DNA of 64,000 bases, taken from Oricola indica (lineage in GTDB: Bacteria > Pseudomonadota > Alphaproteobacteria > Rhizobiales > Rhizobiaceae). How positions within the stretch are numbered: position 1 is the first letter of the stretch; the number at the start of each line of letters is the position of its first letter. Shown here piece after piece: positions 2,381 to 24,484 of the stretch. The notes under the pieces are model-generated. The model saw nothing but the letters and a program-made list of their open reading frames with translations, was not told the DNA's origin and did no database searches. A program made the translations under genes and the position numbers. The DNA lies in assembly GCF_019966595.1 (NCBI RefSeq), contig NZ_JAINFJ010000010.1:62001-126000 (forward strand), written 5' to 3'.

Positions 2381-2395
2381 AGAAGGAACACCGAG

Positions 2396-2821: not shown

Positions 2822-2931
2822 GCGGCAATGGCTTCTTCGCGCACGCATTTCGGCCGTAATTTCGGCGCATCCGCCGCCATGCATCTGATCGGCGGAACGG
2901 CCTGCCGGATCGGCCTCAGGGGATGGCCAAC

Positions 2932-4251: not shown

Positions 4252-4253
4252 CG

Positions 4254-6456: not shown

Positions 6457-6457
6457 C

Positions 6458-6940
6458 TCAGGGCTCCTTGTCCCAGGTGTCACGTGCGAGGCGGATCATC
6501 CGGAAAGCGGAATTGAGGATCAGCAACACCAGAAAAACACCAAACGCGCTGAACACGACCGTCATGGGCAATCGCAGCGTCGGCGATGACTGACGTCCGG
6601 TGAAAACGATGTAGTCGTAGTTTCCGTAGAGCGAGAGGAGCAGAACGACGAGGATCAATCCCGTCCCCACCAGTGCGAGAACCCGTCGCACGGGCGGACG
6701 CGCCGCGTGGTACAAGAGATCAAAGGAGACGTGCTCGCGTTCCTTGACGATTGACGCCGCGCCGACGCAGACGATCCAGACATACAGGATGCCCGCAACT
6801 TCCTGTGTCCACGACAGCGGATCGTTCAGCACGTAGCGGAAGAAAACCTGCAACACGAAAACGATGAAAAGGGCGGCAAACCCCAGAACGCAGAATATCT
6901 CGCACAGCTTGGATATCAGTGCCCAGACCGTCTTTACCAC
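6458..6940 (-). CDS. dctQ: TRAP transporter small permease DctQ
   Basis: A 160-residue small TRAP subunit with four predicted TM segments (about residues 12-32, 48-65, 85-105 and 126-148). The typical FFRYVLNDPLSWTQEVAGILYVWIV core places the conserved Trp/Glu motif in helix 2. The start is GTG at 6940 with GGAG 8 bases upstream. It pairs with DctM in the inner membrane. It starts 79 bp after the dctP stop, and that gap holds a stem-loop. Confidence 0.9.
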   Translation of the reverse strand: MVKTVWALISKLCEIFCVLGFAALFIVFVLQVFFRYVLNDPLSWTQEVAGILYVWIVCVGAASIVKEREHVSFDLLYHAARPPVRRVLALVGTGLILVVLLLSLYGNYDYIVFTGRQSSPTLRLPMTVVFSAFGVFLVLLILNSAFRMIRLARDTWDKEP

Positions 6941-6964
6941 TCAGCCTGCTCCATTGCGAAGGTG

Positions 6965-6992
6965 AAGCCGCAGCCATCCTTGGCCGCGGCTT
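6965..6992 (-). other. Stem-loop between dctP and dctQ
   Basis: Arms of 11 bases, AAGCCGCAGCC and GGCCGCGGCTT on the plus strand, pair with a single mismatch (a G-U wobble in the minus-strand transcript) around a 6-base loop. It sits directly after the binding-protein gene. No T run follows, so it is more likely an mRNA 3'-end stabiliser or attenuator than a full terminator. Confidence 0.6.
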
Positions 6993-7019
6993 GTCCGAGT
7001 TTCCCCGAGTGTCGGTGAC

Positions 7020-8045
7020 TTAGAGAGCGTTGATCCGCTCGAGCAGGCCTTCCGGCCACTCCTTGGCGTAATCGCTTTCGAGATAAACGCCCTGAACATG
7101 GCTCCGGAATGCATCGAGGTCCGGCGTCGTCACTTTCAGCCCGTTCGATTCGAGCAGGCTCGTCCCGTCCGCTTCCGTGGCGAGCGTGCCCTCGTCGACG
7201 AAGACCGCCTGGGACTTGGCCGCATCGCTGACCACGGCCTTTTCGTCATCGCTCAGTTCGTTCCAGAACGAATTGGACATGGCGAAGAAGAGCGGCGCGA
7301 CCATGTGGCCGGTCAGCACGAGCTGTTCGCTGACTTCATAGAATTTGGCGGCGATCATGTCGCTGATCGGGTTTTCCAGGCCGTCGACCGTGCCGGTGGA
7401 GAGGGCAAGATAGACCTCGTCGAAAGCGATCGGCGTCGGGTTTGCGCCAAGCGCCTTGCCGAGGAACTGCCAGGTGTCGGAGCCCGGAACGCGCAGCTTG
7501 AGGCCGGCGAGATCCGCGGGCGTCTGCACGTCCTTCTCCTTGCGCAGGATGACATGGCGCGTGCCGAGATACTGAGAGCTGAGGATCGTGACATCCATTT
7601 CACTGGACACGCGGCCGCGATATTCCGTGGCGACATCGCTGTCGTCGAAGACCTTGTGCATGTGCTCGGCATCGCGAAGCAGATAGCCGGCCGTGAAGAT
7701 GGAGTATTCGGGGATGTAACCGGCGATATCCTGCGGCGAGATCATGCCGACTTCGAGATTGCCGCGTTGCATGGCGGGAATTTCGGTGCCCTGATCGAAA
7801 AGAGTGGCGTTGAGATGGATTTCCACGCCCAGTGTCGGTGCATTCGCCTCGACCGTTTCCTTGAATTTCATCAGACCTTTGGCCTGCCACTCCGCCTCAG
7901 GGCTGGGCGTCGAGATCCTGATCACCTTCTTGTCCTGAGCGAAGGCCGATCCGGACAGGAAGGCCGGCGCCGCGAGGGCCGCGCCCGATGCGGCGAGAAG
8001 CGTTCTGCGTGAAATGTTGGTCTTGCTGTGCTTGCTATGTTTCAC
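7020..8045 (-). CDS. dctP: TRAP transporter substrate-binding protein DctP
   Basis: The periplasmic binding protein of the DctPQM transporter, 341 residues. The N-terminus NISRRTLLAASGAALAAPAF is a twin-arginine-like export signal ending near AFA. The mature protein has the DctP fold, including LKLRVPGSDTWQFLGKALGANPTPIAFDEVYLALSTGTVDGLENP, where the conserved Arg binds the substrate carboxylate. The start is GTG at 8045 with GGGAG upstream. It lies 21 bp downstream of the gntR stop in the same operon. The ligand is probably an organic acid linked to the hydantoinase and sugar-acid genes next door; this is inference from context. Confidence 0.93.
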   Translation of the reverse strand: MKHSKHSKTNISRRTLLAASGAALAAPAFLSGSAFAQDKKVIRISTPSPEAEWQAKGLMKFKETVEANAPTLGVEIHLNATLFDQGTEIPAMQRGNLEVGMISPQDIAGYIPEYSIFTAGYLLRDAEHMHKVFDDSDVATEYRGRVSSEMDVTILSSQYLGTRHVILRKEKDVQTPADLAGLKLRVPGSDTWQFLGKALGANPTPIAFDEVYLALSTGTVDGLENPISDMIAAKFYEVSEQLVLTGHMVAPLFFAMSNSFWNELSDDEKAVVSDAAKSQAVFVDEGTLATEADGTSLLESNGLKVTTPDLDAFRSHVQGVYLESDYAKEWPEGLLERINAL

Positions 8046-8066: not shown

Positions 8067-8768
8067 CTAACCGGGACTATCCCGGCCTGCTGCTGCGGAT
8101 TTCTCCTTGACCGACTCGGCAAGCAGGCGCTCCACTTCGGCGCTGTTATGGGTTCGCGCGAGTTGCTCGGCCTTGTCGGCATCGCCGCTCGCGACGGCAT
8201 CCTTCAAAGCGCGATGGTCCTCCAGAAGATGATGGTAGTCGCGCGCCGTCAGCCCGATATGGGTCATCTGGAAACGGACCTGCTGGATCAGCCGCTCATG
8301 CTGCTGGATCAGCCTTCCATGGCCGGACATACCGATGACGGTCCGGTGCAGATTGAAATCCGCATCGACGATCGCCTCGCGGTTTCCCGCTTTTGCGGCC
8401 TTCTCGAGTTCGCTGAATGCTTTCGCGAGTTGGGTACGACTCGCCGGTGTGGCGCGTTCAGCAGCAAGACGCGCGCCAAGACCTTCCAGTACGGCGCGCA
8501 GCGTGTAGAGCTCCCACGCTTCATGGACCGATGCGGGCGCAACTTCCCATTTCGTGAAGGCTACCTGACAGACAAGGCCCTCCGAGGTCAGCTGCATCAG
8601 CGCGGAACGGATCGTGCCGCGGCTGACTTCGAGGTTCCGCGCCAATTCCGTCTCCAGAAGACGATGACCAGGGGGCATCATGCCGCTGACGATCTGTCGG
8701 CGGATACTGCTGGCCGCCTGGCGGTCCAGAAGCCTGTCCTGGGTTTTTAGACTTTCGAGAGCTACCAT
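8067..8768 (-). CDS. GntR-family transcriptional regulator (FCD/FadR subfamily)
   Basis: A 233-residue regulator. Residues 1-75 form a winged helix-turn-helix (SIRRQIVSGMMPPGHRLLE, then LARNLEVSRGTIRSALMQL). Residues 90-225 form an all-helical FCD ligand domain with metal ligands DFNLH, HHLLEDH and ARTH. The ATG at 8768 is preceded by AAAGGAGAGG; in-frame codons further upstream would run into the control region. It is divergent from hyuA, and the 342-bp space between them holds two ATTGTCARCAAT-type palindromes. One more copy lies before each of the two other promoter regions up to 20.3 kb. It is therefore the likely regulator of this whole block, possibly including itself. The inducer is unknown. 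Confidence 0.92.
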   Translation of the reverse strand: MVALESLKTQDRLLDRQAASSIRRQIVSGMMPPGHRLLETELARNLEVSRGTIRSALMQLTSEGLVCQVAFTKWEVAPASVHEAWELYTLRAVLEGLGARLAAERATPASRTQLAKAFSELEKAAKAGNREAIVDADFNLHRTVIGMSGHGRLIQQHERLIQQVRFQMTHIGLTARDYHHLLEDHRALKDAVASGDADKAEQLARTHNSAEVERLLAESVKEKSAAAGRDSPG

Positions 8769-8998: not shown

Positions 8999-9014
8999 CA
9001 ATTGTCAACAATTG
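8999..9014. promoter_or_regulatory. Operator palindrome, FCD-GntR type (site 1)
   Basis: CAATTGT-CA-ACAATTG has perfect 7-bp arms around a 2-bp centre. The core ATTGTCAACAAT recurs with at most one change at 9069, 15462 and 20229. Its TTGT..ACAA form resembles the TNGT..ACNA operators of FadR-type GntR regulators, and a gntR gene of that type starts 230 bp away. Confidence 0.65.
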
Positions 9015-9053
9015 ATTATAGATTGACATAGGTCGGCTGAAATCGCACGTCGA

Positions 9054-9082
9054 TTGACAAGATAGAAGATTGCTGACAATAA
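9054..9082 (+). promoter_or_regulatory. hyuA promoter with operator site 2
   Basis: TTGACA at 9054-9059 is followed after 17 bp by CAATAA at 9077-9082, a plausible sigma-70 promoter for hyuA. The second operator, ATTGCTGACAAT at 9069-9080, overlaps the end of the spacer and the -10 box. It is the exact reverse complement of the copy at 20229-20240. Binding there would block RNA polymerase, which suggests repression. Confidence 0.55.
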
Positions 9083-9110
9083 ACTATCACGTTTCAATGA
9101 AGTGAGAGAC

Positions 9111-11192
9111 ATGGCAGCCACTGCGCGAATAGGTGTCGATATCGGCGGCACGTTCACCGACCTTGTCCTTGTCGCCGATGACGGGCGACGTCTTGCCAAG
9201 AAGGTCGCATCGACACCGGATCACCCGGAGGCGGCAGTCTTGTCGGGCGTTTCCGCGCTTCTGGACGCCGCCGAATTGAAGCCGGGCGACATTACGGCCG
9301 TTCTGCATGGCACCACGGTCGGCTCCAACGCCATTCTCCAGAAGCGTGGGGGTCGCATCGGCCTGCTGACAACGCGGGGATTCCGCGATGTGCTGGAGAT
9401 CGGCAGGCTGCGCACGCCGGACATGTTCGACCTGACCTGGGACAAACCCGTGCCCCTGGTCCCGCGCCATTTGCGCTTCGAAGTGACCGAACGGATCGCG
9501 GCGGACGGGCAGGTCGTGACAGCCCTCGCCGAACAGGAACTGGAGGCGCTGTGCCACGAGTTCGCGCAGGCGCGGCTTGATACGCTGGCGCTGTGCTTTC
9601 TCAACTCATACTGCAATCCGGAGCATGAGTTGCGGGCCGAGGAAATCATCCGCGCGGCGGTGCCGGATCTGCCGGTGACCACCTCGGTCTCCATCCTTCC
9701 CGAACAGCGCGAGTATGAACGCACCTCCACGACCGCCGTGAATGCCTATGTGCTGCCGGTCATGCGAGACTATCTGATCGCGCTTCAGGAAGGCCTGCGG
9801 AAAGGCGGCGTGACCGCCCCCTTGTTCATCAGCAATTCGAACGGCGGGCTGGCCCCGGTACATGTCGCCCAGAAAAAGCCCGTCATGTTCATTTCGTCCG
9901 GCCGGGCCGCGGGTGTGGCCGGCGCCGGCCATGTCGGACGGCTCTCGGACATCGCGAATCTCGTCGCCTTCGACATGGGCGGCACCACCGCCTCGGCATC
10001 GCTCATCAAGGACGGCGAACTGACACGCACGACCGAGTACGAGTTTCGAGACGGTATCTCCACGCCAAGCCGATTCATCAAGGCGGGCGGCTATCTCATG
10101 CGCGTTCCCACGGTCGATGTCGCCGAAATCGGCAACGGCGCGGGATCCATCGCGCATGTGGATGATGGCGGCCTGATTCACGTCGGGCCGGTGTCGGCCG
10201 GCGCCAGCCCCGGACCGGCCTGCTACGGCGCGGGCGGCGACCGCCCCACACTCACCGACGCCAACCTCGTGCTGGGCTACCTGCCTGACAGGCTGGCCGG
10301 CGGAAGCATGGCGCTGTCACCCGAACTCGCGGCCGCCGCGATCGAGGAACATGTCGCGAAACCCGCCGGTCTGACCGTGATCCAGGCGGCGCTTGGCATG
10401 CGGGCAATCGCCAATTCGAACATGTCGCGCGCGATCAGGGCCGTGACCGTGGAGCGTGGGCAGGATCCGCGCGACTTCGTTCTTTTCGCCTTTGGCGGCG
10501 CCGGCCCCAACCATTCCTGCGATCTGGCCAGAAGCGTCGGCATCCGAAAGGTCGTGCTCCCGCCGGAACCCGGCGTGTTCACGGCGTCCGGCATGCTCGA
10601 GGCGGCTGTCGAATATTTCTTCATTCGCTCCTTCGCATGCGAACCCGGCGCGATAGACCTGGCCGGGCTTCGCGAAACGGCCCGGTCGCTCTCAGCGCAG
10701 GCCGAAGAGGAATTGCGGCAGGAAGGGTTCGATGCCGACGCGATCCATTTCGACTTCGAACTCGACATGCGTTTCGCCGGTCAGGATTCCGAACTTCAGG
10801 TGCCGGTCGATCCGTTCTCCGACGACCTGTCGGTCGAGGATCTGACGGCCCGCTTCCTTGCCATGTACGAAGACACCTTCGGCTACGTGTCGTCGGACGG
10901 CGTCGAAAGCGTCAACCTGCGCATGCGCGCTTTCTGGCCACTGCCCGGCACGGGCGAGCGCATGCCGGAAAAGCCCGGCGGAACCGCGCCGGAACCGGTG
11001 TCGCGGCGCGCCGTCCATTTCGAGGCCGACGCCGCGCCGGTCCTCACGCCGGTCTACGACCGCCACACGGTGACGGCTCTCGTCGAGGGGCCGGCGATCT
11101 TCGAAAGCGCGGATACGACCTTTACGATTCCGCCCGATGCCACGGCGGAACCCGACCCTTACGGCAATCTCGTGGTGACCTTCCGTGACTGA
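9111..11192 (+). CDS. hyuA: Hydantoinase/oxoprolinase subunit A
   Basis: A 693-residue protein of the ATP-dependent hydantoinase A / 5-oxoprolinase family. It has an actin-like ATPase fold with phosphate loops GVDIGGTFTDLVL near the N-terminus, FDMGGTTAS near residue 287 and FGGAGPNHSC near residue 462. With the B subunit these enzymes open cyclic amides (hydantoins, 5-oxoproline, related lactams) using ATP; acetone and acetophenone carboxylases are relatives. The ATG at 9111 is preceded by AGTGAGAG; a GTG three codons upstream is less likely. Its end overlaps hyuB by 8 bp, so the subunits are coupled. The substrate cannot be told from sequence. Confidence 0.93.
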   Translation: MAATARIGVDIGGTFTDLVLVADDGRRLAKKVASTPDHPEAAVLSGVSALLDAAELKPGDITAVLHGTTVGSNAILQKRGGRIGLLTTRGFRDVLEIGRLRTPDMFDLTWDKPVPLVPRHLRFEVTERIAADGQVVTALAEQELEALCHEFAQARLDTLALCFLNSYCNPEHELRAEEIIRAAVPDLPVTTSVSILPEQREYERTSTTAVNAYVLPVMRDYLIALQEGLRKGGVTAPLFISNSNGGLAPVHVAQKKPVMFISSGRAAGVAGAGHVGRLSDIANLVAFDMGGTTASASLIKDGELTRTTEYEFRDGISTPSRFIKAGGYLMRVPTVDVAEIGNGAGSIAHVDDGGLIHVGPVSAGASPGPACYGAGGDRPTLTDANLVLGYLPDRLAGGSMALSPELAAAAIEEHVAKPAGLTVIQAALGMRAIANSNMSRAIRAVTVERGQDPRDFVLFAFGGAGPNHSCDLARSVGIRKVVLPPEPGVFTASGMLEAAVEYFFIRSFACEPGAIDLAGLRETARSLSAQAEEELRQEGFDADAIHFDFELDMRFAGQDSELQVPVDPFSDDLSVEDLTARFLAMYEDTFGYVSSDGVESVNLRMRAFWPLPGTGERMPEKPGGTAPEPVSRRAVHFEADAAPVLTPVYDRHTVTALVEGPAIFESADTTFTIPPDATAEPDPYGNLVVTFRD

Positions 11193-12969
11193 CACTTCCC
11201 AAACGCCCCAGGCCGACGGCTTCACGCCCGATCCGGTCACATTCGCCGTCATCAAGTCGGCGCTCGATGCGATCGTGGACGAGATGGCCGGCACGGTCAT
11301 GCGTACCGCACGCTCGCCTATCGTGCGCGACGTGCTCGACTATTCCGCGACGCTTTGCGACAGCAAGGGCCAGATCCTCAGCCAGGCCAAGACCGTTGCC
11401 CTGCATCTCGGCGCGGTGCCGGACGCGATGGAAGTCATCGTCGGGAAGTTCGGCGAGACTGCAAAAGAGGGCGATGTCTACGTTCTTAACGATCCCTATG
11501 CCGGCGGCATGCACCTGCCAGATATCTTCATGGTCAAGCCGATCTTCTTCGAAGGCCGGCTGCAGGGCTTTTCCGTCGTCGTCGCCCATCACTGCGACGT
11601 GGGCGGACGCGTACCCGGGTCCAATGCCGCCGACTCTACCGAGATCTATCAGGAAGGCGTCCGCATACCGCCGATGCGACTCTACGATGCGGGAAAGCCC
11701 AACGAGACGTTGCTGGAACTGCTGCGTACCAATGTTCGCCTGCCGGCCCTGGTGCTCGGCGACCTCGACGCCCAATATGCCACATGCCGCACCGGCGAAC
11801 GCGAACTCATTCGCCTCATCGAGCGCTACGGCGAAACCGGGCTCAGGTCGTATTTCGAGGCGCTTCTCGACTATGGCGAGGTGTTGACGCGCAAATCCAT
11901 CGCGGCCTGGCCGGACGGGACCTACACCTTCGAGGACGCCATAGACGGCGACGGCTTCACCACCGAGCCCATTCCCATTCGCTGCGCAATCACTGTGGCA
12001 GGCGATTCTCTCGAGATCGATTTCGCGGGCTCGTCGTCCCAGGTCCGCGGCGCGATCAACGCCACCTTCTCCTTCACGAAGTCGGCATCCTATCTCGCGG
12101 TGCGCTGCGCATTGGAGCGCGACGTTCCGAACAATGCCGGTGTCTATCGCGCCATTACCGTCAAGGCGCCGGATCATTCCATCCTCAAGCCCGACATGCC
12201 TGCGCCGGTCGCCGCCCGCGCATTGACCGGATACAGGGTCGTGGACACGGTTCTCGGCGCATTGTCGAAGATCTCCCCTGCCCGCCTGATGGCCGCGGGG
12301 GAAGGCGGCAACACGGTTCTTTCCATGGGCGGCTACGACAAGGAGACAGGCGAACCCTTCGTTCTCGTGGACATGATCAACGGCGCATGGGGCGGCCGGG
12401 CCGACAAGGACGGGGTAGAAGCGATCACCAATCCGGCGCAGAACATGTCCAACCTGCCCATCGAGACCCTTGAGAAGCGTTATCCGTTGCGCATGGAGGA
12501 ATATTCCCTGCGTCCGGATTCATGCGGCGCGGGGCGCTTCCGCGGCGGGCTCGGCCTGACCCGGACCTACCGTATCCTCGTCGATGACACGATGCTGCAG
12601 GTTCGCGCCGACCGCATCGCCACCCCGCCCTATGGTATCGCCGGCGGGCTGCCCGGCAGCCTGTCGCGCAACATATTGAATCCGGACCGCGAGAACGCCG
12701 ACTTGCCCGGCAAGCTGACGCGCATCGTCGACAGGGACACCGTCATCCGGCATGAACAGGCCGGCGGCGGCGGCAATGGCGACCCGTTTGACCGCTCGCC
12801 GGACGCGATCGCCTTCGACATAAGGGAAGAAAAGATCACCCGCGACTACGCCGCGCGCTTTCATGGCGTCTGTTTTGCCGCCGACGGTTCGATAGACGAG
12901 CCGGAAACGCACGAGAACCGGGCGAAAATACGCGATGCACGCGACATGAAAAAGGAGAGCGTTCAATGA
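11185..12969 (+). CDS. hyuB: Hydantoinase/oxoprolinase subunit B
   Basis: A 594-residue partner of HyuA, full length. The family blocks DPVTFAVIKSALDAIVDEM at the start, NDPYAGGMHLPDIFMVKPIF, AHHCDVGGRVPGSNAADSTEIYQEG and the C-terminal GGGGNGDPFDRSP are all present; the His residues of the HHCDVGG block match the conserved metal-binding region. The start is GTG at 11185, inside the end of hyuA. The stop overlaps the SDR start as ATGA, so hyuA-hyuB-SDR form one translationally coupled operon. Confidence 0.93.
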   Translation: MTDTSQTPQADGFTPDPVTFAVIKSALDAIVDEMAGTVMRTARSPIVRDVLDYSATLCDSKGQILSQAKTVALHLGAVPDAMEVIVGKFGETAKEGDVYVLNDPYAGGMHLPDIFMVKPIFFEGRLQGFSVVVAHHCDVGGRVPGSNAADSTEIYQEGVRIPPMRLYDAGKPNETLLELLRTNVRLPALVLGDLDAQYATCRTGERELIRLIERYGETGLRSYFEALLDYGEVLTRKSIAAWPDGTYTFEDAIDGDGFTTEPIPIRCAITVAGDSLEIDFAGSSSQVRGAINATFSFTKSASYLAVRCALERDVPNNAGVYRAITVKAPDHSILKPDMPAPVAARALTGYRVVDTVLGALSKISPARLMAAGEGGNTVLSMGGYDKETGEPFVLVDMINGAWGGRADKDGVEAITNPAQNMSNLPIETLEKRYPLRMEEYSLRPDSCGAGRFRGGLGLTRTYRILVDDTMLQVRADRIATPPYGIAGGLPGSLSRNILNPDRENADLPGKLTRIVDRDTVIRHEQAGGGGNGDPFDRSPDAIAFDIREEKITRDYAARFHGVCFAADGSIDEPETHENRAKIRDARDMKKESVQ

Positions 12970-13751
12970 GCGGAAACAAGACCGCCGTCGTCACCGGTGG
13001 TGCGAGCGGGATCGGCGAAGCGACCGTCATGCGGTTCGCTGCCGCCGGATGGACCGTGGTGATCGGAGACATCAACGTCGAGCGCGCCGGGATTGTCGCG
13101 GAGGCCGCCCGTGAAGCCGGCGCGGCTGCTGTCCACGTCATTCCGCTCGACCTGGCCGACGAAACGAGCGTGGCGGCATTCGCCGAACGCACAGATGACG
13201 AATGCGGATCCGTGGATGCGGTGGTCAATTCAGGCGGCATTCTCCAGAACGGCATCCGTTTCAACGATATGCCGGTGGACGAATTCGACGCCGTCTGGCG
13301 GATCAATGTCCGCGGCACGCTTCTGATCAACCAGGCTTTCGGCAGACGGATGACTGTGGCCGGTTCCGGCAGCATCATCAACATGTGCTCGCTGACGACC
13401 TATCGACCGTCGCCGCAGCCCGCCTATGCGCCGGCAAAAGTCGCCTTGAAATCCATGACGGAGACAATGGCCGCGGACTTCGGGCCTTCCGGCGTCCGCG
13501 TCAACGCGGTCGCGCCAGGCTATACGCTGACGCCGGCGATGAAGGCACGCATCGACGAAGGCGCGCGCGATCCGCAGGCCATCCTCGACAAATCGGCCAT
13601 CAAGCGGCTCGTCGAACCCTCGGATGTCGCCGAGGCCGTGTTCTTTCTGTGCTCGGACGCCGCGTCGGCCATCACAGGCGTGGTACTGCCTGTCGATTGC
13701 GGCTGGCTCGCCTATTCGGCGTATACGTCTTACGCGTCGCAGCCGGGCTGA
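12966..13751 (+). CDS. SDR-family NAD(P)-dependent oxidoreductase
   Basis: A 261-residue classical short-chain dehydrogenase. It has the dinucleotide motif TGGASGIGEA at residues 10-19, a VNSGG block in place of NNAG, a Ser in the SIINMCSL strand, and the catalytic pair YAPAK. The C-terminus ends with SAITGVVLPVDCGW. It presumably oxidises or reduces an alcohol/ketone intermediate of the hydantoinase pathway. The ATG overlaps the hyuB stop as ATGA. A strong terminator follows 24 bp after its stop. Confidence 0.92.
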   Translation: MSGNKTAVVTGGASGIGEATVMRFAAAGWTVVIGDINVERAGIVAEAAREAGAAAVHVIPLDLADETSVAAFAERTDDECGSVDAVVNSGGILQNGIRFNDMPVDEFDAVWRINVRGTLLINQAFGRRMTVAGSGSIINMCSLTTYRPSPQPAYAPAKVALKSMTETMAADFGPSGVRVNAVAPGYTLTPAMKARIDEGARDPQAILDKSAIKRLVEPSDVAEAVFFLCSDAASAITGVVLPVDCGWLAYSAYTSYASQPG

Positions 13752-13774
13752 AACCCGAAAACCGATGCAAGAAC

Positions 13775-13806
13775 AACCGGCCGGAAGCTCCCGGCCGGTT
13801 TATTTG
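13775..13806. terminator. Bidirectional rho-independent terminator
   Basis: Perfect 10-bp arms AACCGGCCGG and CCGGCCGGTT flank a 6-base loop and are followed by TATTTGT on the plus strand. It lies between the convergent SDR and AldA-like genes and could serve both, though the T tract is better on the plus strand. Confidence 0.8.
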
Positions 13807-13808
13807 TA

Positions 13809-15269
13809 CTAGTTGAAGTTGAGATACATCGTCTTCTTCTGGAAATACCCTTCGAGACCGTATTTGCCGTCTTCGCCACCCAGGCCGCTGTCCCGCATGC
13901 CGGCATGGTGCGCCTGCACGACATCGCCCCCGGGCTTGTTGACGTAGATCTCCCCGAATCTCAGCTCGCGCGTGAGCCGCATGATGCGGCGCATGTCCTT
14001 CGTGAAGACATAGGCCGAAAGGCCGTAACGGCTTTCATTGGCCAAACGCATCGCTTCGTCGAAATCCGCGACCCGCATGATCGGCACCACCGGTCCGAAC
14101 ACTTCGTTCTGCATGATTTCCATGGCGTTGTTGTCGACACTCATGACGGTGGGCTGGAACCAGTGGCCCTTCGAGAACTCGCTTCCGTCCATCCGCTTGC
14201 CGCCGGTCAGGAGTTCCGCGCCCGCATCGGCGGCGGCGGCCACCATCGCCTCGACCTTTTCCAGTTCGCCGCGGCTGAACTTCGGGCCGACATCGACCAG
14301 TTGGCGCGGATCGCCGACCTTGAGCGCCTCCACCGCCTTGATGAACCGCTCGGTGAATTCGTCGGCTATCTTATCGTGGACATACATACGCTCGTTGCAG
14401 ATGCAGATCTGGCCGCAATTCTCGAAGCGCGAGAGCACCGCGGCGTTCACCGCCGACGCGATATCCGCATCCTCCGCGACGACGAATGGAGCCTTTCCGC
14501 CGAGCTCGAGCCGCAGGATCTTGAGATCGTCAGCGGCGGCCCGGAAGATCGCCTTGCCCGCGCGTACGCTTCCCGTCAGCGTTACGAGACGCGTATAGGG
14601 ATGCGCCACGAGCGACTGGCCGATCTCTTCGCCGAAGCCGGACACAACATTGATCACGCCCGCGGGAAAGCCGGCCTCCAGCGCCAGTTGCGCGATCTCG
14701 AAACTCGAAATCGGCGTGCCCTCATGCGACTTGACCACAACCGTGTTGCCGGCCAGAAGCGCCGGGCCGATCTTGCGACACATCAGCGCCGCCGGATAGT
14801 TCCATGCGGTCAGCGCGACCACCACGCCGTGGGCGACCTTCTGGATCCAGATCTGCTCGTTGGGATTGTCCGACGGGATGATGTCGCCGGTAACGCGGCG
14901 CGCTTCCTCGGCGGCATATGTCAAATAGAGAGCCGCACCCTCGATCTCGCCGCGTGCTTCCGCGAGCGGCTTTCCCTGCTCCGCGATGACGATCTGCGCC
15001 AGTCTTTCGCGGCTCTGGAGAATGAGGCGGGCAAGGCGCTTGAGCAGCTCCGCGCGCTCGATCGGCGGCAAGGCTTCCCAGTCGGGTTGCGCGTTCCACG
15101 CGGCCGTCAGCGCGCGATCGGCATCGGCCGCGCTGCCCCGCGGTACGGAAGCGATGATCTCCTCGGTGGCCGGGTTCTCTACCTCGATCCATTCCTTGAC
15201 GGTGGAATCGACCCACTCGCCGTCGATGAAATGACGATAGCGGTCAGAACCTTTGACCAGTTCCTTCAT
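13809..15269 (-). CDS. Aldehyde dehydrogenase, AldA (lactaldehyde/glycolaldehyde)-like
   Basis: A 486-residue NAD(P)-dependent aldehyde dehydrogenase. The catalytic Cys lies in ENCGQICICNERMYV, which resembles the GQVCNCAERVYV motif of E. coli AldA more than general ALDH. The catalytic Glu is in LELGGKAPFVV, and the cofactor loop in TLTGSVRAGKAIF. It converts an aldehyde to the acid, perhaps a lactaldehyde, glycolaldehyde or semialdehyde from the neighbouring lyases. Start choice is open: the ATG at 15269 has no well-placed Shine-Dalgarno, while a TTG at 15278 has AGGAG 8 bases upstream. It is divergent from a DHDPS-family gene across a region with a copy of the shared operator. Confidence 0.9.
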   Translation of the reverse strand: MKELVKGSDRYRHFIDGEWVDSTVKEWIEVENPATEEIIASVPRGSAADADRALTAAWNAQPDWEALPPIERAELLKRLARLILQSRERLAQIVIAEQGKPLAEARGEIEGAALYLTYAAEEARRVTGDIIPSDNPNEQIWIQKVAHGVVVALTAWNYPAALMCRKIGPALLAGNTVVVKSHEGTPISSFEIAQLALEAGFPAGVINVVSGFGEEIGQSLVAHPYTRLVTLTGSVRAGKAIFRAAADDLKILRLELGGKAPFVVAEDADIASAVNAAVLSRFENCGQICICNERMYVHDKIADEFTERFIKAVEALKVGDPRQLVDVGPKFSRGELEKVEAMVAAAADAGAELLTGGKRMDGSEFSKGHWFQPTVMSVDNNAMEIMQNEVFGPVVPIMRVADFDEAMRLANESRYGLSAYVFTKDMRRIMRLTRELRFGEIYVNKPGGDVVQAHHAGMRDSGLGGEDGKYGLEGYFQKKTMYLNFN

Positions 15270-15461
15270 AGCCTGCAAAACGTAAACTCCTGTATTCCGG
15301 TCGGCCCGATCCGGCGAGATACCACCGTCGGATGAAGTGCGGCATTCCAGGAAAGCTCCGGCGCCGATATGGCGCGACATGTCCCCTCCGGCGATAGCCG
15401 CTGGCCGTCCGCGCCTGTCTTCGCCAACACAATCGCCCGACCGCAGATTGCCGTCAAGAAG

Positions 15462-15473
15462 AATGTTGACAAT
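15462..15473. promoter_or_regulatory. Operator palindrome, FCD-GntR type (site 3)
   Basis: AATGTTGACAAT, reverse complement ATTGTCAACATT, differs at one base from the operator core at 8999-9014. It lies in the 264-bp space between the divergent AldA-like gene and the DHDPS-family gene, so it could control both. Confidence 0.55.
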
Positions 15474-15533
15474 TATCGATTAATCCTGTCACTTGCCCGC
15501 ACCACGAACATTGTTGGAGCACACACCCGCGCG

Positions 15534-16508
15534 ATGTCATTTCTGCCGTCATCCAGATACCTCTCGACTGCGATCGCGACGCCGGTCACACCGGCCCTGC
15601 GTCCGGATTCGGAACGCCTGATCGCCTTCGCGCGCCACCTGCTGGGCGAGGGCGTTGACGGCATCACCGTATTCGGAACGACGGGAGAAGGTCCGGAGTT
15701 TTCGGTTCGTGACCGGATGGCGACGCTGGATGCCCTGGTCTCGGCAGGCATAGCGCCCGAACGCATCACCGTCTCGGTCAGCGCGCTTGCCTTCGAGGAT
15801 GCGTTGACGCTCGCCCGCCACGCAACCGGGCACGGCGTACATGGCTGCCTGCTCATGACGCCTTGCATGTTTCGCGGCGGGATTTCCGACGACGGTGTGT
15901 TCGAGTTCTATCGCCAATTCATAGAGCGGACGGGACGCGACGACCTGCGCCTTCTGCTTTATAATTTCCCGGATATTTCCGGCGTCACCATTTCTCTGCG
16001 GGTCGTGCGCCGCCTGACCGAAAAATACCCCGGTATCGTGGCCGGCCTGAAGGATAGCGGCGGCGACGCTGACCTGACCCGGCAGTACATCCTCTCCTTT
16101 GCCGAGATGGAGATCTATACAGGCAACGAAGTCGACCTGCCGGGACTGAACCCGATAGGCATCGCAGGCACCATATGCGGCCTCGCCAATATCATGCCCG
16201 GCTTCATGCGCGCCCTCGTCGATACCCGAAACAGCTATGACGGGCGGCCGATGATCGAATCGCTTCGCAACGCCGATGCGATCTTGTCGCGTTTCGCTTT
16301 CATACCCTCGGCCAAAGCGATCATCGCCGACACGATGAACGACCCGAACTGGCTGCGGGTCATGCCGCCGATGTCGCAACCCCCCGCCGTACAGCGGTCG
16401 CAAATGCTGAGCGCCTACCGGGCCTGGCAGCAATCCGCCTCCGGGCTGGTGCGAACGTCAGACGACGAGGCTTCAACAAGCAACGTGACGCCGATCAGGA
16501 TCGCCTGA
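15534..16508 (+). CDS. DHDPS/NanA-family class I aldolase or dehydratase (copy 1)
   Basis: A 324-residue TIM-barrel enzyme of the dihydrodipicolinate synthase / N-acetylneuraminate lyase superfamily. GTTGEG lies near residue 48, the conserved Tyr in LLLYNFPD near 141, and the Schiff-base Lys in VAGLKDSGGD near 171. Members cleave or dehydrate 2-keto acids (4-hydroxy-2-oxoacids, 2-keto-3-deoxy sugar acids, sialic acid). The ATG at 15534 fits family alignment; the longer in-frame start would cross the operator. It heads the operon with the class II aldolase (42 bp gap) and a second DHDPS paralogue. The substrate is unknown; sialic acid is not supported because no NanE, NanK or NeuA is present. 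Confidence 0.88.
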   Translation: MSFLPSSRYLSTAIATPVTPALRPDSERLIAFARHLLGEGVDGITVFGTTGEGPEFSVRDRMATLDALVSAGIAPERITVSVSALAFEDALTLARHATGHGVHGCLLMTPCMFRGGISDDGVFEFYRQFIERTGRDDLRLLLYNFPDISGVTISLRVVRRLTEKYPGIVAGLKDSGGDADLTRQYILSFAEMEIYTGNEVDLPGLNPIGIAGTICGLANIMPGFMRALVDTRNSYDGRPMIESLRNADAILSRFAFIPSAKAIIADTMNDPNWLRVMPPMSQPPAVQRSQMLSAYRAWQQSASGLVRTSDDEASTSNVTPIRIA

Positions 16509-16550
16509 GCGGGCACGTTCGAGACCCACACAGAACGCGAGGATAACGCA

Positions 16551-17306
16551 ATGCCGGACAATGCGCCGAAACTCGACACGGCCGAGATCCAAAACGCACG
16601 CCGTGAACTGGCCGCCTGCTTCAGGATGGCTGCGCGCCTTGGAATGCATGAAGGCATCTGCAACCATTTTTCGGCAGTGGTGCCCGGATATAACGAGCTC
16701 TTTCTGGTCAACCCGTATGGCTACGCCTTTTCGGAAGTCACCGCGTCGAACCTTCTGATCTGCGATTTCGAGGGCAATGTGGTGTCCGGCGACGGCGTTC
16801 CGGAACCGACGGCTTTCCACATCCACGCGCAACTTCACAAACTGAAGCCAAGCGCGCGCGTCGCGTTCCATACGCATATGCCATATGCGACCGCGCTCGC
16901 CATGATCGACGCGGAACCGCTGAACTATGCCGGCCAGACCGCCGCGCGCTTCTACAACCGCGTTGTCGTGGACGACGATTACAACGGCCTTGCACTCGAC
17001 AACACCGAAGGCGCGCGGATCGCCAACGCCGTTGGCGACGCCGATATCGTCTTCATGCGCCACCACGGCGTCATGGTTCTGGCGAACAGCATCGCGGAAG
17101 CCTGGGACGATCTCTACTATCTCGAGCGCGCCTGCGAAGTGCAGGTTCTGGCCATGTCCACCGGCAAGAAGCTGATTCCGATCGACCACGATCTGGTCCG
17201 CAAGACAGGCGAGCAGATCATGAGCGAAGCGGCGGCGGGCGCCGACCTTCACCTCGCCAGCATCCAGCGCCAGCTCGATCGACTGGAGCCCGATTACCGC
17301 AATTAG
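16551..17306 (+). CDS. Class II aldolase/adducin family protein
   Basis: A 251-residue zinc-dependent class II aldolase of the fuculose-1-phosphate aldolase/adducin fold. Visible metal ligands are the His pair in VAFHTHMPYATAL and the later His in MRHHGVMVLANS; GICNHFSAVVPG and the Asn/Ser loop near residue 25-40 bind the substrate phosphate or carboxylate in relatives. Family reactions are retro-aldol cleavage of hydroxy-aldehyde or hydroxy-keto compounds, or decarboxylation. It is 46 bp upstream of the second DHDPS paralogue, which points to stepwise breakdown of a hydroxylated acid. The precise substrate is not known. Confidence 0.88.
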   Translation: MPDNAPKLDTAEIQNARRELAACFRMAARLGMHEGICNHFSAVVPGYNELFLVNPYGYAFSEVTASNLLICDFEGNVVSGDGVPEPTAFHIHAQLHKLKPSARVAFHTHMPYATALAMIDAEPLNYAGQTAARFYNRVVVDDDYNGLALDNTEGARIANAVGDADIVFMRHHGVMVLANSIAEAWDDLYYLERACEVQVLAMSTGKKLIPIDHDLVRKTGEQIMSEAAAGADLHLASIQRQLDRLEPDYRN

Positions 17307-17352
17307 TAGCGCGGCCGCAGGCCGAGAGCACACCCACATAAAGGAAGCAACC

Positions 17353-18246
17353 ATGGCCTGGACCGGCGTATTCCCCGCAGTGACCACGAAACTGAAAGCC
17401 GATGGCAGTTTCGATCCCGACGCAATGGCGCACAGCATAGAACGGCTGATCGAGAACGGCGTCTCCGGCATGATCGTGTTGCCGATGCTCGGCGAGAACG
17501 CTTCGCTGAGCCAGAAGGAGCGCGATGAAGTGCTCGACCTGTCGGTCTCCGTCGTCGCCGGGCGCGTGCCGCTGCTCTCCGGACTGGCCGCGATTTCCAC
17601 CGCCGATGCGACCTCCATGGCGAAGAACGCGGAACGGCGCGGCCTCAAGGGGCTGATGGTCTTCCCGAGCCTGGCTTACAAGACAGACAGGCGCGAAACC
17701 ATCGCATGGTACGAGGCCATCGCAGCGGCAAGCAGCCTTCCGATCATGATTTACAACAACCCGATCGCCTACAAGGTCGATGTCGACGTTCCGACGCTGG
17801 AAGGCCTGCGCGCGGTCGATACGATTACCTGCATCAAGGAAGAAACCGGCGATATCCGTCGCGTGACGGACCTCTACAATGCCTTCGGGGACCGTTTTTC
17901 GGTCTTTTGCGGGGTCGACGATCTCATTCTCGAAAGCCTGGCGCTTGGCGTGACCGGCTGGGTATCGGGCATGACGAATGCCTGGCCCAAGGAGTGCGTC
18001 GAAATCTTCAACGGCGGCCGCGACGGAAAGTTCGACGCCGTACGTCCCCTCTACAGACTGATGACTCCCGCCTTCCACCTCGATACCGACGTCAAGCTGG
18101 TGCAATACATCAAGCTGGCCGAGAACATCGTTTACGGAGCTCCGGCCGGCGTACGCCCACCGCGCCTGGAAATCGAGGGCGAGGAACTCGCCCGCGTCAC
18201 GGCCGTCATCGAAAAGACCGTAGCGGACCTGGCAAACTACCGGTAA
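17353..18246 (+). CDS. DHDPS/NanA-family class I aldolase or dehydratase (copy 2)
   Basis: A 297-residue second DHDPS-superfamily enzyme. The Schiff-base Lys is in CIKEETGD near residue 162 and the Tyr in MIYNNP near 134. The usual GTTGE loop is replaced by PMLGENASL, so substrate specificity differs from copy 1. Preceded by AAAGGAAGC before the ATG. It closes the plus-strand operon and converges with the tautomerase gene. Candidates from the family are 2-keto-3-deoxy acid aldolase or a dehydratase making alpha-ketoglutarate semialdehyde; the nearby aldehyde dehydrogenases fit the latter, but this is inference. Confidence 0.88.
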   Translation: MAWTGVFPAVTTKLKADGSFDPDAMAHSIERLIENGVSGMIVLPMLGENASLSQKERDEVLDLSVSVVAGRVPLLSGLAAISTADATSMAKNAERRGLKGLMVFPSLAYKTDRRETIAWYEAIAAASSLPIMIYNNPIAYKVDVDVPTLEGLRAVDTITCIKEETGDIRRVTDLYNAFGDRFSVFCGVDDLILESLALGVTGWVSGMTNAWPKECVEIFNGGRDGKFDAVRPLYRLMTPAFHLDTDVKLVQYIKLAENIVYGAPAGVRPPRLEIEGEELARVTAVIEKTVADLANYR

Positions 18247-18275
18247 CTCCGAAGCGGTTCCGACGGGTATACCCA

Positions 18276-18301
18276 CCGGCGCGGGCAACTCGCCCCGCCG
18301 G
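18276..18301. terminator. Weak candidate terminator between convergent genes
   Basis: An interrupted GC-rich hairpin (CCGGCG pairing with CGCCGG plus an inner GG/CC) lies between the convergent copy-2 lyase and tautomerase genes. No clear T run follows on either strand. Confidence 0.3.
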
Positions 18302-18325
18302 CATTCCCTAATACGCGCGGCGGCA

Positions 18326-18526
18326 TCAGGCCTCGTCGGACACTTTGTCCGATTCCAGCCGGCCGCCATTCGCCCAGTTTTCGGGCGCAATGTCGTCGAA
18401 GACCACGGCGACCGCAGCGGCGCCGCAGCCCAGAATCTCCGAAGCCGCCCTTGTGATCGCTTGAGCGAAGTCGCGCTTTTGCTCGACGGTGCGCCCGGAC
18501 AGAAGTTCCACACGTATCATCGGCAT
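18326..18526 (-). CDS. 4-oxalocrotonate tautomerase family protein
   Basis: A 66-residue tautomerase subunit. After Met removal the N-terminal Pro (MPMIRVELLSGR) is the family's catalytic base; the Arg at position 11 is also conserved. Members interconvert enol and keto forms of unsaturated 2-keto acids as hexamers or trimers. The C-terminal AVVFDDIAPENWANGG is typical of the 4-OT subgroup. It lies 74 bp downstream of the altronate-type dehydratase on the same strand, so it may ease tautomerisation of the enol product of that dehydration. Confidence 0.85.
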   Translation of the reverse strand: MPMIRVELLSGRTVEQKRDFAQAITRAASEILGCGAAAVAVVFDDIAPENWANGGRLESDKVSDEA

Positions 18527-18600
18527 GTTTCAGTCTCCGTATTCAGTATTTTGTCGATCGATTTGACGGCATTCGAAACAGGCATTCCTCGCGGTCCGCC

Positions 18601-20121
18601 CTATAGCCATGCATTGATATGCCAGGGAGCGAACTCGTCGTCGCCGTATCCGAGGTCTTCGCTGCGCGTGGCTTTGCCGGAGGCGCTTTCGAGCATCAGT
18701 TGGAAGATCCGCTCTCCCATCTCCTCGAGGCTTTCCTCGCCATCGAGAAGCGTACCGCAATTGAAATCCATGTCCTCGCGCATCCGATCGAACATCGGCG
18801 TATTGGATGCGAGCTTGACGGACGGCGTCGGGCGGCAGCCGAAGCATGATCCCCTGCCTGTCGTGAACATGATGAGGTTCGCGCCAGACGCAACCTGCCC
18901 GGTCGCGGAAATGGGATCGAAACCGGGCGAGTCCATGAAGATGAGCCCCTTCTTTTCTGCCGGCTCCGCATAGTGGATCACATCCACAAGATTGGTTGTT
19001 CCACCCTTGGCCACGGCTCCCAGCGACTTTTCCAGGATCGTCGTCAATCCGCCTTCCCTGTTGCCGGGCGATGCGTTGCCGTCGAAGCCCTGCGGCTCGC
19101 GCCTGGTATAGTCCTGCCACCAGTCGATCAGCGCGATCAGCCGCTCCCCAACCTCATGGCTGACGGCGCGTTCGAGCAACAGATTTTCGGCGCCGTGTAT
19201 CTCGGGCGTCTCGGCAAGGATCGCGGTGCCCCCGCATGCGACAAGGCGATCGACGGCCGCGCCAAGAGCCGGATTGGCCGTCAGGCCCGACATGCCGTCC
19301 GACCCGCCACATTGCAGGCCGACGACCAGCTCGGATGCCGGGATCGGTTCGCGTTCGGCCTTCGCCGCCTCGACCAGCATTTCCTCGACATCTGCGACAC
19401 CCGCCGAGATCGCCGCGCGGGTTCCGCCGGCATCCTGGATGGAAATCGTGCGCAGCATGGGCCCCGGCACGAAGTGCTGATCCTTGAGCAACGCGCTGAT
19501 CTGATTGTCTTCGCATCCAAGCCCCACCAGCAGGATACCGGCGAAGTTCGGGTGGCGCATATAGCCACCAATCGTACGACGCAGCATGTCCATGCTGGTC
19601 GAGCCGTTGGAGACACTGCAGCCGGATTTGTGGGTGAGCGGCACGACGCCATCGACGCCGGGATAAGGTTCCAGCGCTCCCGGCATGCTGAAGTGCTCCG
19701 CTATCTTCTTCGAGACCAGGCTGGAGCAGTTCACCGAGGCGATGACCCCGATGTAATTGCGGGTCCCGACCTTCCCGTTGGAGCGGCGATATCCCTGGAA
19801 GACCGGCACGCGGTCGGCATCGACAAACCGGGTGTTGCGCAGGCGTGCACCGATTTCCAGCGCGGCATGGGACGGTTCGTAACCAAGATTGTGTTCGTGC
19901 ACCCAGCTGCCCGGCAGTATGTCCATACGCGCGCGCCCGATGACCAGCCCCATCCGGCGAACCTCCTCACCCGCCTTGATCGGAGCGATGGCGATCTTGT
20001 GCCCTGCCGGCGCCGCTTCGATGGCGACGAGCCCGAATCCGTCCAGCGGGTCTCCAATATCGAGAGCGTCTATGGCGATGGCGACCTGGTCGTCATGCTG
20101 CATGTGTAGGAGTCTTTTCAA
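18601..20121 (-). CDS. UxaA-family altronate/galactarate-type dehydratase
   Basis: A full-length UxaA/GarD family dehydratase of about 506 residues. An N-terminal SAF-like domain (HDDQVAIAIDAL, then GHKIAIAPI) is followed by the catalytic domain with GVIASVNCSS, LTHKSGCSVSNGSTSMD and GLQCGGSDGMSGLTANPALG, and FTTGRGSCFGC near the end, the region binding the iron centre. The family removes water from sugar acids such as D-altronate or D-galactarate. I chose the TTG at 20121: GGAG lies 6 bases upstream, and the SAF domain normally begins at this point; the ATG at 20103 would trim it and the ATG at 20190 lacks a ribosome site. It has its own promoter region with an operator palindrome. Confidence 0.88.
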   Translation of the reverse strand: MKRLLHMQHDDQVAIAIDALDIGDPLDGFGLVAIEAAPAGHKIAIAPIKAGEEVRRMGLVIGRARMDILPGSWVHEHNLGYEPSHAALEIGARLRNTRFVDADRVPVFQGYRRSNGKVGTRNYIGVIASVNCSSLVSKKIAEHFSMPGALEPYPGVDGVVPLTHKSGCSVSNGSTSMDMLRRTIGGYMRHPNFAGILLVGLGCEDNQISALLKDQHFVPGPMLRTISIQDAGGTRAAISAGVADVEEMLVEAAKAEREPIPASELVVGLQCGGSDGMSGLTANPALGAAVDRLVACGGTAILAETPEIHGAENLLLERAVSHEVGERLIALIDWWQDYTRREPQGFDGNASPGNREGGLTTILEKSLGAVAKGGTTNLVDVIHYAEPAEKKGLIFMDSPGFDPISATGQVASGANLIMFTTGRGSCFGCRPTPSVKLASNTPMFDRMREDMDFNCGTLLDGEESLEEMGERIFQLMLESASGKATRSEDLGYGDDEFAPWHINAWL

Positions 20122-20224
20122 GGCGGTCTCCGGCTGAGTGAAAAAGGTGAGGAAACGACGACGTCTGCCCGCCGCATGCATAGTGGGCATCAGCCGTATC
20201 TAAGCACACATACCTAATGTTAAC

Positions 20225-20244
20225 AATGATTGTCAGCAATCATT
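20225..20244. promoter_or_regulatory. Operator palindrome, FCD-GntR type (site 4)
   Basis: AATGATTG-TCAG-CAATCATT has perfect 8-bp arms. Its core ATTGTCAGCAAT is the exact reverse complement of the site over the hyuA promoter at 9069-9080. It lies about 100 bp upstream of the dehydratase start. Confidence 0.6.
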
Positions 20245-20364: not shown

Positions 20365-21021
20365 ATGCGCCAATGCCTTGACGGGTCTGCCATGCTCTTT
20401 GAAGGCATGAGGATCGAGACGCTCGACGGCCTGGCACAGAGACTGCCTCAACGTGACACAATTCTTTGCCTCGGCAACGGCCCATCATCGGAAGATCCGC
20501 GCCTTGCCAATTTCGAGGACCCGATCCTGTTCCGCGTGAACTGGATTTGGTCCGAACGCGACTGGCTGAACAAACCCGATCTGGTGCTGACGGGCGATCC
20601 GGATCTTGTTGCACTCGCGAAACAGCCGGTCGTCGTCTTTCCGACACTCGAAATCGGCCAGCCAATTCTTCGAGACCACGCGGAACGAGGCCATCTGCCG
20701 AATTCCGGCTATGTATTCCTCAGCCGCTTCTGCCCGATCCTGGCAGACCTTTCAGGACCGCAGATCCCTACCAACGGCGCTCTCATGATCGCGCTTTCCG
20801 TAGCCCTCCGACCGAAACGAATCGTCATCGCCGGCATTGATCTCTACCGCCACCCACAGGGCAAGTACCCGGGCGCACCGGACGAGGCCGAGGGATATAC
20901 CAGCCAGCACAGCGCTGAGATTGACCTCGCCTTGATCGACTACGCGCTTACCGATTTCTCCGGCGAAGTAACGATACTCAGTGAAAACCTGCGTAACGCT
21001 CTCGCTTCTCACCGGGACTGA
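20365..21021 (+). CDS. GT42 (CST-I/II) sialyltransferase-like protein
   Basis: A 218-residue protein that I align by eye with Campylobacter CstII-type sialyltransferases (GT42). GNGPS at 37-41 and the Asn in FRVNW (59) match AGNGPS and FRCNQ. PTNGALMIALSVAL then GIDLYR at 157-162 with Tyr168 match the TSG..ALGY..SGIDFYQ region with its two active-site Tyr. His182 in QHSAEID matches the catalytic His in GHSKNTD. The tail ILSENLRNAL matches the family end. It is shorter than CstII (about 290), mostly lacking the variable lid. Start chosen for AGGAAA 7 bases upstream. No signal or TM is seen. It stands alone between catabolic operons with no CMP-sialic acid genes in view. Alternatives are another sugar-nucleotide transferase of the DUF115-like type. 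Confidence 0.65.
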   Translation: MRQCLDGSAMLFEGMRIETLDGLAQRLPQRDTILCLGNGPSSEDPRLANFEDPILFRVNWIWSERDWLNKPDLVLTGDPDLVALAKQPVVVFPTLEIGQPILRDHAERGHLPNSGYVFLSRFCPILADLSGPQIPTNGALMIALSVALRPKRIVIAGIDLYRHPQGKYPGAPDEAEGYTSQHSAEIDLALIDYALTDFSGEVTILSENLRNALASHRD

Positions 21022-23800: not shown

Positions 23801-24484
23801 TCAGGCCTGCCTGCGTTTGTCGATTGCCGGTATCTCGCTGATCATGCGGATCAGGAAATCGCCGGTGTTCTTTTCGTGTTGCTTGACCATTTCGGCGGCG
23901 CCCTTGAAATCGCCGGCGCGCAGCATGTCGCGAATGCTCTTATGCTCCGTCAGCGCGTCGCAGAGCCGGTGATGCTGGGGCGGAATGCCGTGCCGTTGCG
24001 CCGACATCTGGCCGTGCATGTTCTCGATCAGCTTGTGGCACCATGGCGACTGCGGGTTGTCGCAAAGAAGCTCGTGAAACTCATAGTTCTTCTGTGCAAC
24101 GAGGTCGTAGTCCTTCCGGTCGAGAGCCTCCGCATAGGCCTCGATGTTCTCGTCGATCGTCGCGAGGCGCTCGGCGTCGAAATTCGGCGCTCCGAGTTCG
24201 ATCGCGAGGCCGCAGACCCGACCGCGCAACGCGCTGATTTCCCGGATCTGATCGGCCCTCAACCCCTGGACGACGGCGCCAATGTGGCTCTGGATATCGA
24301 GCCACCCCTCTGAAGCGAGCCCGCGGATCGCTTCGCGGATCGGGGTTTCGCTTATTCCCAGTGCCGTCGAAACCTCGCGCGTGGTGATCCTGTCCCCCGG
24401 GCCGACGGCTCCGCTCAGGATCATGGACTGGATGTGGCGCCGGGCCATTTCCGCCTTGGTCATGTAGGTTTTCGGGTTTTCCAT
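23801..24484 (-). CDS. GntR-family transcriptional regulator (FCD subfamily)
   Basis: A 227-residue regulator. It has a winged HTH ([44 protein letters not shown] in short pieces around residues 8-50) and an FCD ligand domain with [20 protein letters not shown] and VKQHE metal ligands. It sits inside the ABC operon, between permease and ATPase genes, so it is cotranscribed with its probable targets. The 16-bp palindrome before the binding-protein gene is the obvious candidate operator. The inducer is presumably the imported sugar acid or a catabolite. Confidence 0.9.

Follow-up and report, generated by a model that had tools for sequence, protein, structure and literature searches.

Several described systems resemble parts of the locus that we analyzed. 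One is PrpR (PA0797), the GntR-family repressor of the 2-methylcitrate operon in Pseudomonas aeruginosa. In the passages of PMC9765439 that deal with its operator, the predicted site is the 12-nt palindrome ATTGTCGACAAT, the protein combines a GntR winged helix-turn-helix with an FCD domain, the regulator gene is under its own site, and a gel shift was performed on the prpR upstream region. PrpR is in turn an example of the FadR-subfamily groups, along with HypR, MdcY, and UxuR, whose palindromes have two nucleotides between GT and AC and which regulate oxidised substrates; the passages on these groups do not mention the gene content described below (PMC4494728). On the enzyme side, Herbaspirillum and Paraburkholderia have a non-phosphorylative D-arabinose pathway that uses a UxaA/GarD-superfamily D-arabinonate dehydratase; in one species, its gene forms a cluster with the gene of a D-KDP dehydratase. 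The sections of PMC6336799 on this pathway mention neither a TRAP transporter nor a hydantoinase nor a second lyase, all of which are in the block described here.

The window (the whole 64-kb stretch of Oricola indica DNA that we analyzed) contains a block that, like PrpR, has the 12-nt palindrome, both protein domains, and a regulator gene with its own site. The regulator gene (8067–8768, minus strand, 233 amino acids) is followed on the same strand by the three genes of a TRAP transporter, dctM, dctQ, and dctP (5170–8045; dctP matches Pfam PF03480 at 4.9e-58). On the plus strand are hyuA and hyuB, for hydantoinase/oxoprolinase A and B (9111–11192, PF01968 at 2.1e-87, and 11185–12969, PF02538 at 2.2e-177), and a short-chain dehydrogenase or SDR (12966–13751, PF13561 at 1.3e-56). 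The best NCBIfam models for hyuA and hyuB are those of the caprolactamase CapAB, and the scores (516.7 and 313.3 bits) are both far below the cut-offs of 1000 bits. The aldehyde dehydrogenase or ALDH gene (13809–15269, minus strand; PF00171 at 1.2e-158) passes NCBIfam NF007497 (507.6 versus 500 bits). It is divergent from plus-strand genes for a DHDPS-family lyase (lyase 1; 15534–16508, PF00701 at 1.1e-30), a class II aldolase-family protein that passes NCBIfam NF005068 (16551–17306; 413.9 versus 269 bits), and a second DHDPS-family lyase or dehydratase (17353–18246, PF00701 at 1.5e-49). On the minus strand, uxaA (18601–20190) encodes a UxaA/GarD-type dehydratase (PF20629 at 1.2e-99), which is shared with the D-arabinose pathway at the level of the superfamily; its product scores under the cut-off of the NCBIfam galactarate dehydratase model (366.6 of 730.85 bits).

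Two genes at this end of the block were not in the initial annotation. Behind uxaA is a minus-strand gene for a 66-aa protein that resembles 4-oxalocrotonate tautomerase (18326–18526, PF01361 at 2.8e-14). Divergent from uxaA, with the sites O4 and O5 described below lying between the two genes, is a plus-strand ORF (20365–21021) with a faint likeness to GT42 sialyltransferases (Pfam CST-I at 0.021, which is below the cut-off, and a best E of 0.0054 in a PDB profile search). Of six relatives that we searched, G397 alone has an orthologue of this ORF, whose membership in the regulon is uncertain. At the start of the window is a neighboring plus-strand cluster (2–5033) that encodes a TRAP DctM fused to DUF3394, a universal stress protein, a class III aminotransferase, and a BKACE enzyme; neither the mismatch scan nor the matrix scan gave an operator match in it.

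The candidate operators of the block lie in three promoter regions. O1 (ATTGTCAACAAT, 9001–9012, plus strand) and O2 (ATTGTCAGCAAT on the minus strand, 9069–9080) are in the gap between the regulator gene and hyuA, O3 (15462–15473, minus strand; AATGTTGACAAT as read on the plus strand) is between the divergent ALDH and lyase 1 genes, and O4 (an exact ATTGTCAGCAAT, 20229–20240, plus strand) is 5' of uxaA. The initial annotation had listed four related stretches, and all are present: CAATTGTCAACAATTG at 8999–9014, ATTGCTGACAAT at 9069–9080, AATGTTGACAAT at 15462–15473, and the dyad AATGATTG-TCAG-CAATCATT at 20225–20244, which has O4 inside it. Three of the cores are exact ATTGTCARCAAT, and the fourth, O3, has one mismatch. 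Adjoining O4 is a partial site that the initial annotation lacked (O5, AATGTTAACAAT, 20216–20227, plus strand), with two mismatches.

Exact ATTGTCARCAAT is found three times in the genome (5,093,531 bp), every time within the block. Allowing one mismatch gives 32 matches in the whole genome, four of them within the block; for 26 of the 28 that are outside, we fetched the locus, and 22 are genic and 4 are intergenic. The symmetric class ATTGYYRRCAAT occurs at nine places in 5.09 Mb: three in the block, all intergenic, and six elsewhere, all within predicted genes. (These genic and intergenic calls come from a simple gene caller based on codon composition, which makes errors: it missed genes in L073 that were seen by tblastn, and it placed O3 inside an over-extended ORF in L004.) At the density of ATTGYYRRCAAT outside the block, the Poisson probability of three in 11.2 kb is 4e-7, which is a post hoc value because the pattern was derived from these very sites. 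In the 64-kb window, there were 11 matches with up to two mismatches, as compared to 4.57 expected, and 0 of 100 shuffles reached 11 (the maximum was 10); near-symmetric sites score on both strands in this count. Some of the remaining genomic matches are close to other FCD-type GntR genes: C42:122975 and C42:124266 are near L135, and C22:548157 is roughly 1 kb away from L140. Such neighbors would be anticipated if related regulators recognize similar sites.

We also scanned the 64-kb window with a matrix. The matrix was built from 22 sites in relatives, none of them from the window or from G397; these training sites were found with the consensus, some are orthologous to the window's sites, and one was supplied by L097, whose annotated GntR gene was unmatched in our search for the regulator. 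The five block sites took the top five ranks (O4, 21.8; O3, 21.3; O2, 21.1; O1, 20.6; and O5, 17.1), and the next position in the window scored 13.6. In a control set of 60 first-order Markov sequences, each 64 kb long, positions that scored at least 17.1 averaged 0.1 per sequence, and the single largest chance score was 21.5. Because of the genome counts, this relatives-only matrix, and the conservation across species described next, we reject the explanation that AT-rich promoters, in a genome that is otherwise GC-rich, resemble the sites by chance, which is very improbable even though the cores overlap TTGACA and hence should be partly common near promoters.

We searched for the regulator in 397 genomes of the order (20 matched at E up to 1e-30, including the genome itself), in the GTDB contig collection (where a single close relative has 86% identity and the remaining 19 loci do not exceed 31%), in 385 genomes of the class (four matched at E up to 1e-40, again including the genome itself), and in 28 genomes of one family (five matched at E up to 1e-50). 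All six of the relatives found with a regulator that is 52–86% identical have a site beside it (G397, with locus L051; G307; G015; G778; G780; and G261). We fetched the block from four of these (G397, G307, G015, and G261), and in every one a further site lies 5' of lyase 1, where it is common to the ALDH gene or, in the rearranged G261 block, to dctP. O1 has an aligned site in G397, G307, and G015; O2 is invariant in four aligned sequences; and the 12 bases of O3 are identical across five aligned species, the window included. In G261, where the gene order is altered, there are sites 5' of the regulator gene, between dctP and lyase 1, and 5' of uxaA. The site 5' of uxaA is ATTGCTGACAAT in G397 and AATGTCGACATT in G261, the latter spotted by eye after the scan missed it. 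In G015, uxaA is in a different operon with no site 5' of it. In G307 there is nothing closer than a homologue with 51% identity, which also lacks a site.

All four of these related blocks have the regulator, the TRAP transporter, hyuA, hyuB, ALDH, both DHDPS-family enzymes, and the class II aldolase. Two of the blocks, those of G397 and G261, also have uxaA and the tautomerase gene (the tautomerase homologue is 67% identical in G397 and 51% in G261), whereas the G307 and G015 blocks have neither gene. The G261 stretch that we fetched showed no SDR. In G780, at L167, the regulator homologue (66%) has an in-frame TAG in a fragmented assembly, and both adjoining sites are kept.

More distant regulators often have the same kind of site. 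Among 14 regulators with 38–44% identity (L074–L081, L096, L098, L163–L165, and L169), 10 have an exact ATTGYYRRCAAT, mostly ATTGTCGACAAT, in the fetched flank, which varied from 3.6 to 30 kb. The fetched flanks of L076, L098, L164, and L169 have no exact match; in L098 and L169 there is a one-mismatch form 80–90 bp upstream. The L170 regulator (34%) has an exact site directly downstream of its gene, and eight more regulators (L082–L089) have no exact site in their fetched flanks. We also counted all 4096 possible 12-bp palindromes, without a seed, in 340 bp at 19 distant regulators (L097 is counted as one of these although, as mentioned above, its GntR gene was unmatched). With up to one mismatch, ATTGTCGACAAT came first, at 6 of the 19, versus 3 of 19 for the runner-up and at most 2 in 20 shuffles; with up to two mismatches, the separation was poor (8 of 19 versus 7). 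In L077 and L078 (G363 and G215), a class II aldolase gene, 67–68% identical to the window's, is 5' of the regulator homologue, and ATTGTCGACAAT precedes the aldolase gene; we predict that this pair is a small regulon of the same type.

Which regulator owns the sites? The initial annotation had described a FadR-type GntR gene beside the first pair of sites, and Pfam confirms both domains, the GntR winged helix-turn-helix (6e-12; 45.5 bits, cut-off 27) and FCD (2.8e-25; 89.6 bits, cut-off 24.3), which place the regulator in the FadR subfamily. It does not pass the cut-off of any NCBIfam equivalog model (the best is TIGR03338, with 105.6 of 271.5 bits). Its recognition helix is SRGTIRSAL, and it has D137, H141, H185, and H207 in the FCD domain, which we take to be the residues that bind a metal and a carboxylate effector. 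Its best sequence match in the PDB is 7xp0 (8.7e-22), presumably PrpR. PrpR controls prp genes, whereas this regulator adjoins other genes, and there is no prpB, prpC, or prpD among the block genes that we scanned. O1 and O2, which are beside the regulator gene and are kept in relatives, are palindromic GT-N2-AC sites. The core, TTGT-N2-ACAA, fits the GT-N2-AC groups of the FadR subfamily as they are described in the relevant passages of PMC4494728.

We considered whether the sites might belong to another FCD-type GntR regulator, such as the second one in the window (23801–24484) or a paralogue elsewhere in the genome. The type of operator is common within the subfamily, according to the same passages of PMC4494728, and searching the genome with the block's regulator gave 19 matches at E up to 0.001, itself included. 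Nevertheless, we think that this is quite improbable. The nearest paralogue is only 33% identical. Every aligned site-bearing regulator has an arginine at position 50, in the recognition helix, and five of the eight L082–L089 regulators, all of which are without an exact site, have glutamine instead. (Arg50 is not sufficient, as L076, L087–L089, and L098 have the arginine yet have no exact site.) The regulator at 23801–24484 has glutamate at this position, and it has no homologue in L051 or L071–L073 (at E up to 1e-15 and half coverage), both of which disfavor it as the owner. Together, the pattern at Arg50, the glutamate in the second regulator, and the distance to the nearest paralogue indicate the gene at 8067–8768, and the adjacent FCD-type GntR regulator is the likely owner of the sites.

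The initial annotation had proposed a single regulon under this regulator. Since a site is beside the regulator in six relatives and sites recur at the lyase promoter (ALDH/lyase or dctP/lyase) in four, this part of the proposal is well supported. Overall, from the computed sites, their conservation, their co-occurrence with the regulator, and the gene families, we predict with considerable confidence that the sites at the three promoter regions are operators and that, with the regulator, they define one regulon of about a dozen neighboring genes. As the predicted operator of PrpR is the same palindrome, this class of operator is already known, and what is new is this regulon as a further member.

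The placement of the sites is informative about how they might act. A TTGACA at 9054–9059 (plus strand), nine bases before O2, is a candidate -35 element for hyuA; this would put O2 in the spacer/-10 region, and both O2 and the TTGACA are invariant in four species. O3 itself includes TTGACA and is near an invariant CGTCAAG (TTGACG on the opposite strand). A generic promoter scan found no consensus sigma-70 promoter in the three regulatory regions, so the -35 assignments are based on the conserved TTGACA alone. Judging by these positions, O2 and O3 would suit repression. O1 and O2 are 68 bp apart in the window, 65 bp in G397, and 123 bp in G307 and G015. Because this distance varies, it is improbable that the two sites form a fixed DNA loop; more probably, each of them controls a separate operon.

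From these data we infer how the regulator might bind and what it might respond to. A dimer of the regulator would bind the palindrome ATTGTYRACAAT (ideal form ATTGTCGACAAT) at the three promoter regions and would most likely be a repressor of the whole block, by blocking RNA polymerase. The regulator would come off its operators once a carboxylate intermediate occupies the metal-binding FCD domain.

The substrate of the block is less clear, and two readings are about equally likely. The first is based on the transporter. A structural model of the dctP product (from 26 sequences, with a pLDDT of 88.7; an earlier model from 5 sequences, with a pLDDT of 46, was not used) has as its best structure match 4pf6, the TRAP solute-binding protein RD1_0742 of Roseobacter denitrificans, with 45% identity. 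We take 4pf6 to be a complex with KDO; the order contains many dctP relatives with a comparable degree of similarity, so the transfer of the ligand from RD1_0742 is uncertain. By their titles, 28 of the 29 structures ranked 2–30 are SiaP-type binders of sialic acid, with many entries for the same few proteins and about 27–30% identity to dctP. Furthermore, a homologue of lyase 1 is within 1.5 kb of the dctP relative in 19 of 30 loci (L099–L128, the best 30 of more matches in the order, several of which are members of the block); with this selection and 1.5-kb flanks, the absence of other genes says little. In five further dctP loci, Pfam scans of selected neighbors identified FCD-type GntR genes in three (L171, L172, and L174), one of which (L172) also has a DHDPS gene; the L173 genes that were scanned are unrelated. 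Both the structure matches and the proximity of lyase 1 fit an acid that is split directly by a DHDPS-type lyase, for example a ulosonic acid.

KDO is a sugar of bacterial lipopolysaccharide and some algal cell walls, and its cleavage would yield pyruvate and D-arabinose. Under the ulosonic acid reading, the TRAP transporter would import a hydroxylated 3-deoxy-2-keto acid (a ulosonic acid, with KDO as the favored example), and lyase 1 would split off pyruvate. The resulting aldose would be oxidised and then, where uxaA is present, dehydrated, and the second DHDPS-family enzyme and ALDH would finish the route. This order of steps, like the substrate itself, is inferred. However, all four related blocks contain hyuAB and the class II aldolase, which are left unexplained by this scheme, while uxaA, which it uses, is in two of the four. 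Because of the absence of uxaA from two blocks, and of SDR from one, we lowered our confidence in this reading: a 3-deoxy-2-ulosonic acid is a tentative proposal for the substrate, and KDO itself is doubtful. Relatives of UxaA also occur in hexuronate-type gene sets, which counts against this reading as well. Even less likely is the most specific version, a dedicated alphaproteobacterial KDO or ulosonic-acid regulon with TRAP uptake, a DHDPS-family KDO aldolase that forms pyruvate and D-arabinose, a UxaA-type D-arabinonate dehydratase, ATP-dependent HyuAB and the tautomerase acting on a modified or lactam form of the sugar acid, and one GntR repressor. The plasmid contexts in which relatives of UxaA and DHDPS occur did not point to one substrate; GntR contexts in the named plasmids pointed to other pathways, with hyuAB in one context. 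Judging by titles and abstracts, our literature search found no paper on a KDO catabolic gene cluster or about the block's gene set.

The second reading starts from hyuAB. The initial annotation had proposed a cyclic amide as the substrate, and this is possible: the regulon may be real and may degrade a lactam or hydantoin of a hydroxylated amino acid, with ring opening by HyuAB first and the lyases acting later. We hold this as tentatively as the ulosonic acid. In its favor, hyuAB is kept in every one of the four related blocks, the products match models of caprolactamase subunits, although below the cut-off, and Rhizobium plasmid contexts put related hyuAB genes with amino-acid ABC transporters. 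G015 has a second cluster (L156, 6698–17980, on contig C17) with hyuAB (37–38%), an aminotransferase-like gene, uxaA (60%), the second DHDPS-family enzyme (66%), and an ABC transporter; the sole near-operator that we found in this stretch is inside hyuB. On the other hand, the TRAP binding protein groups with binders of ulosonic acids, and relatives of dctP adjoin DHDPS-family lyases, with no hyuA matches in the fetched 1.5-kb flanks. Also, no aminotransferase is inside the block, and the one at 2923–4251 has no operator nearby. Since uxaA is less constant across the blocks than hyuAB and the class II aldolase, the cyclic amide is still a candidate, and it is because of the transporter that we narrowly prefer the ulosonic acid.

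In the predicted regulon, the three genes of the transporter and nine enzyme genes form one testable unit, and the regulator is assigned a precise predicted operator. If the ulosonic acid reading is true, the block would provide candidate genes for the uptake and cleavage of ulosonic acids such as KDO.
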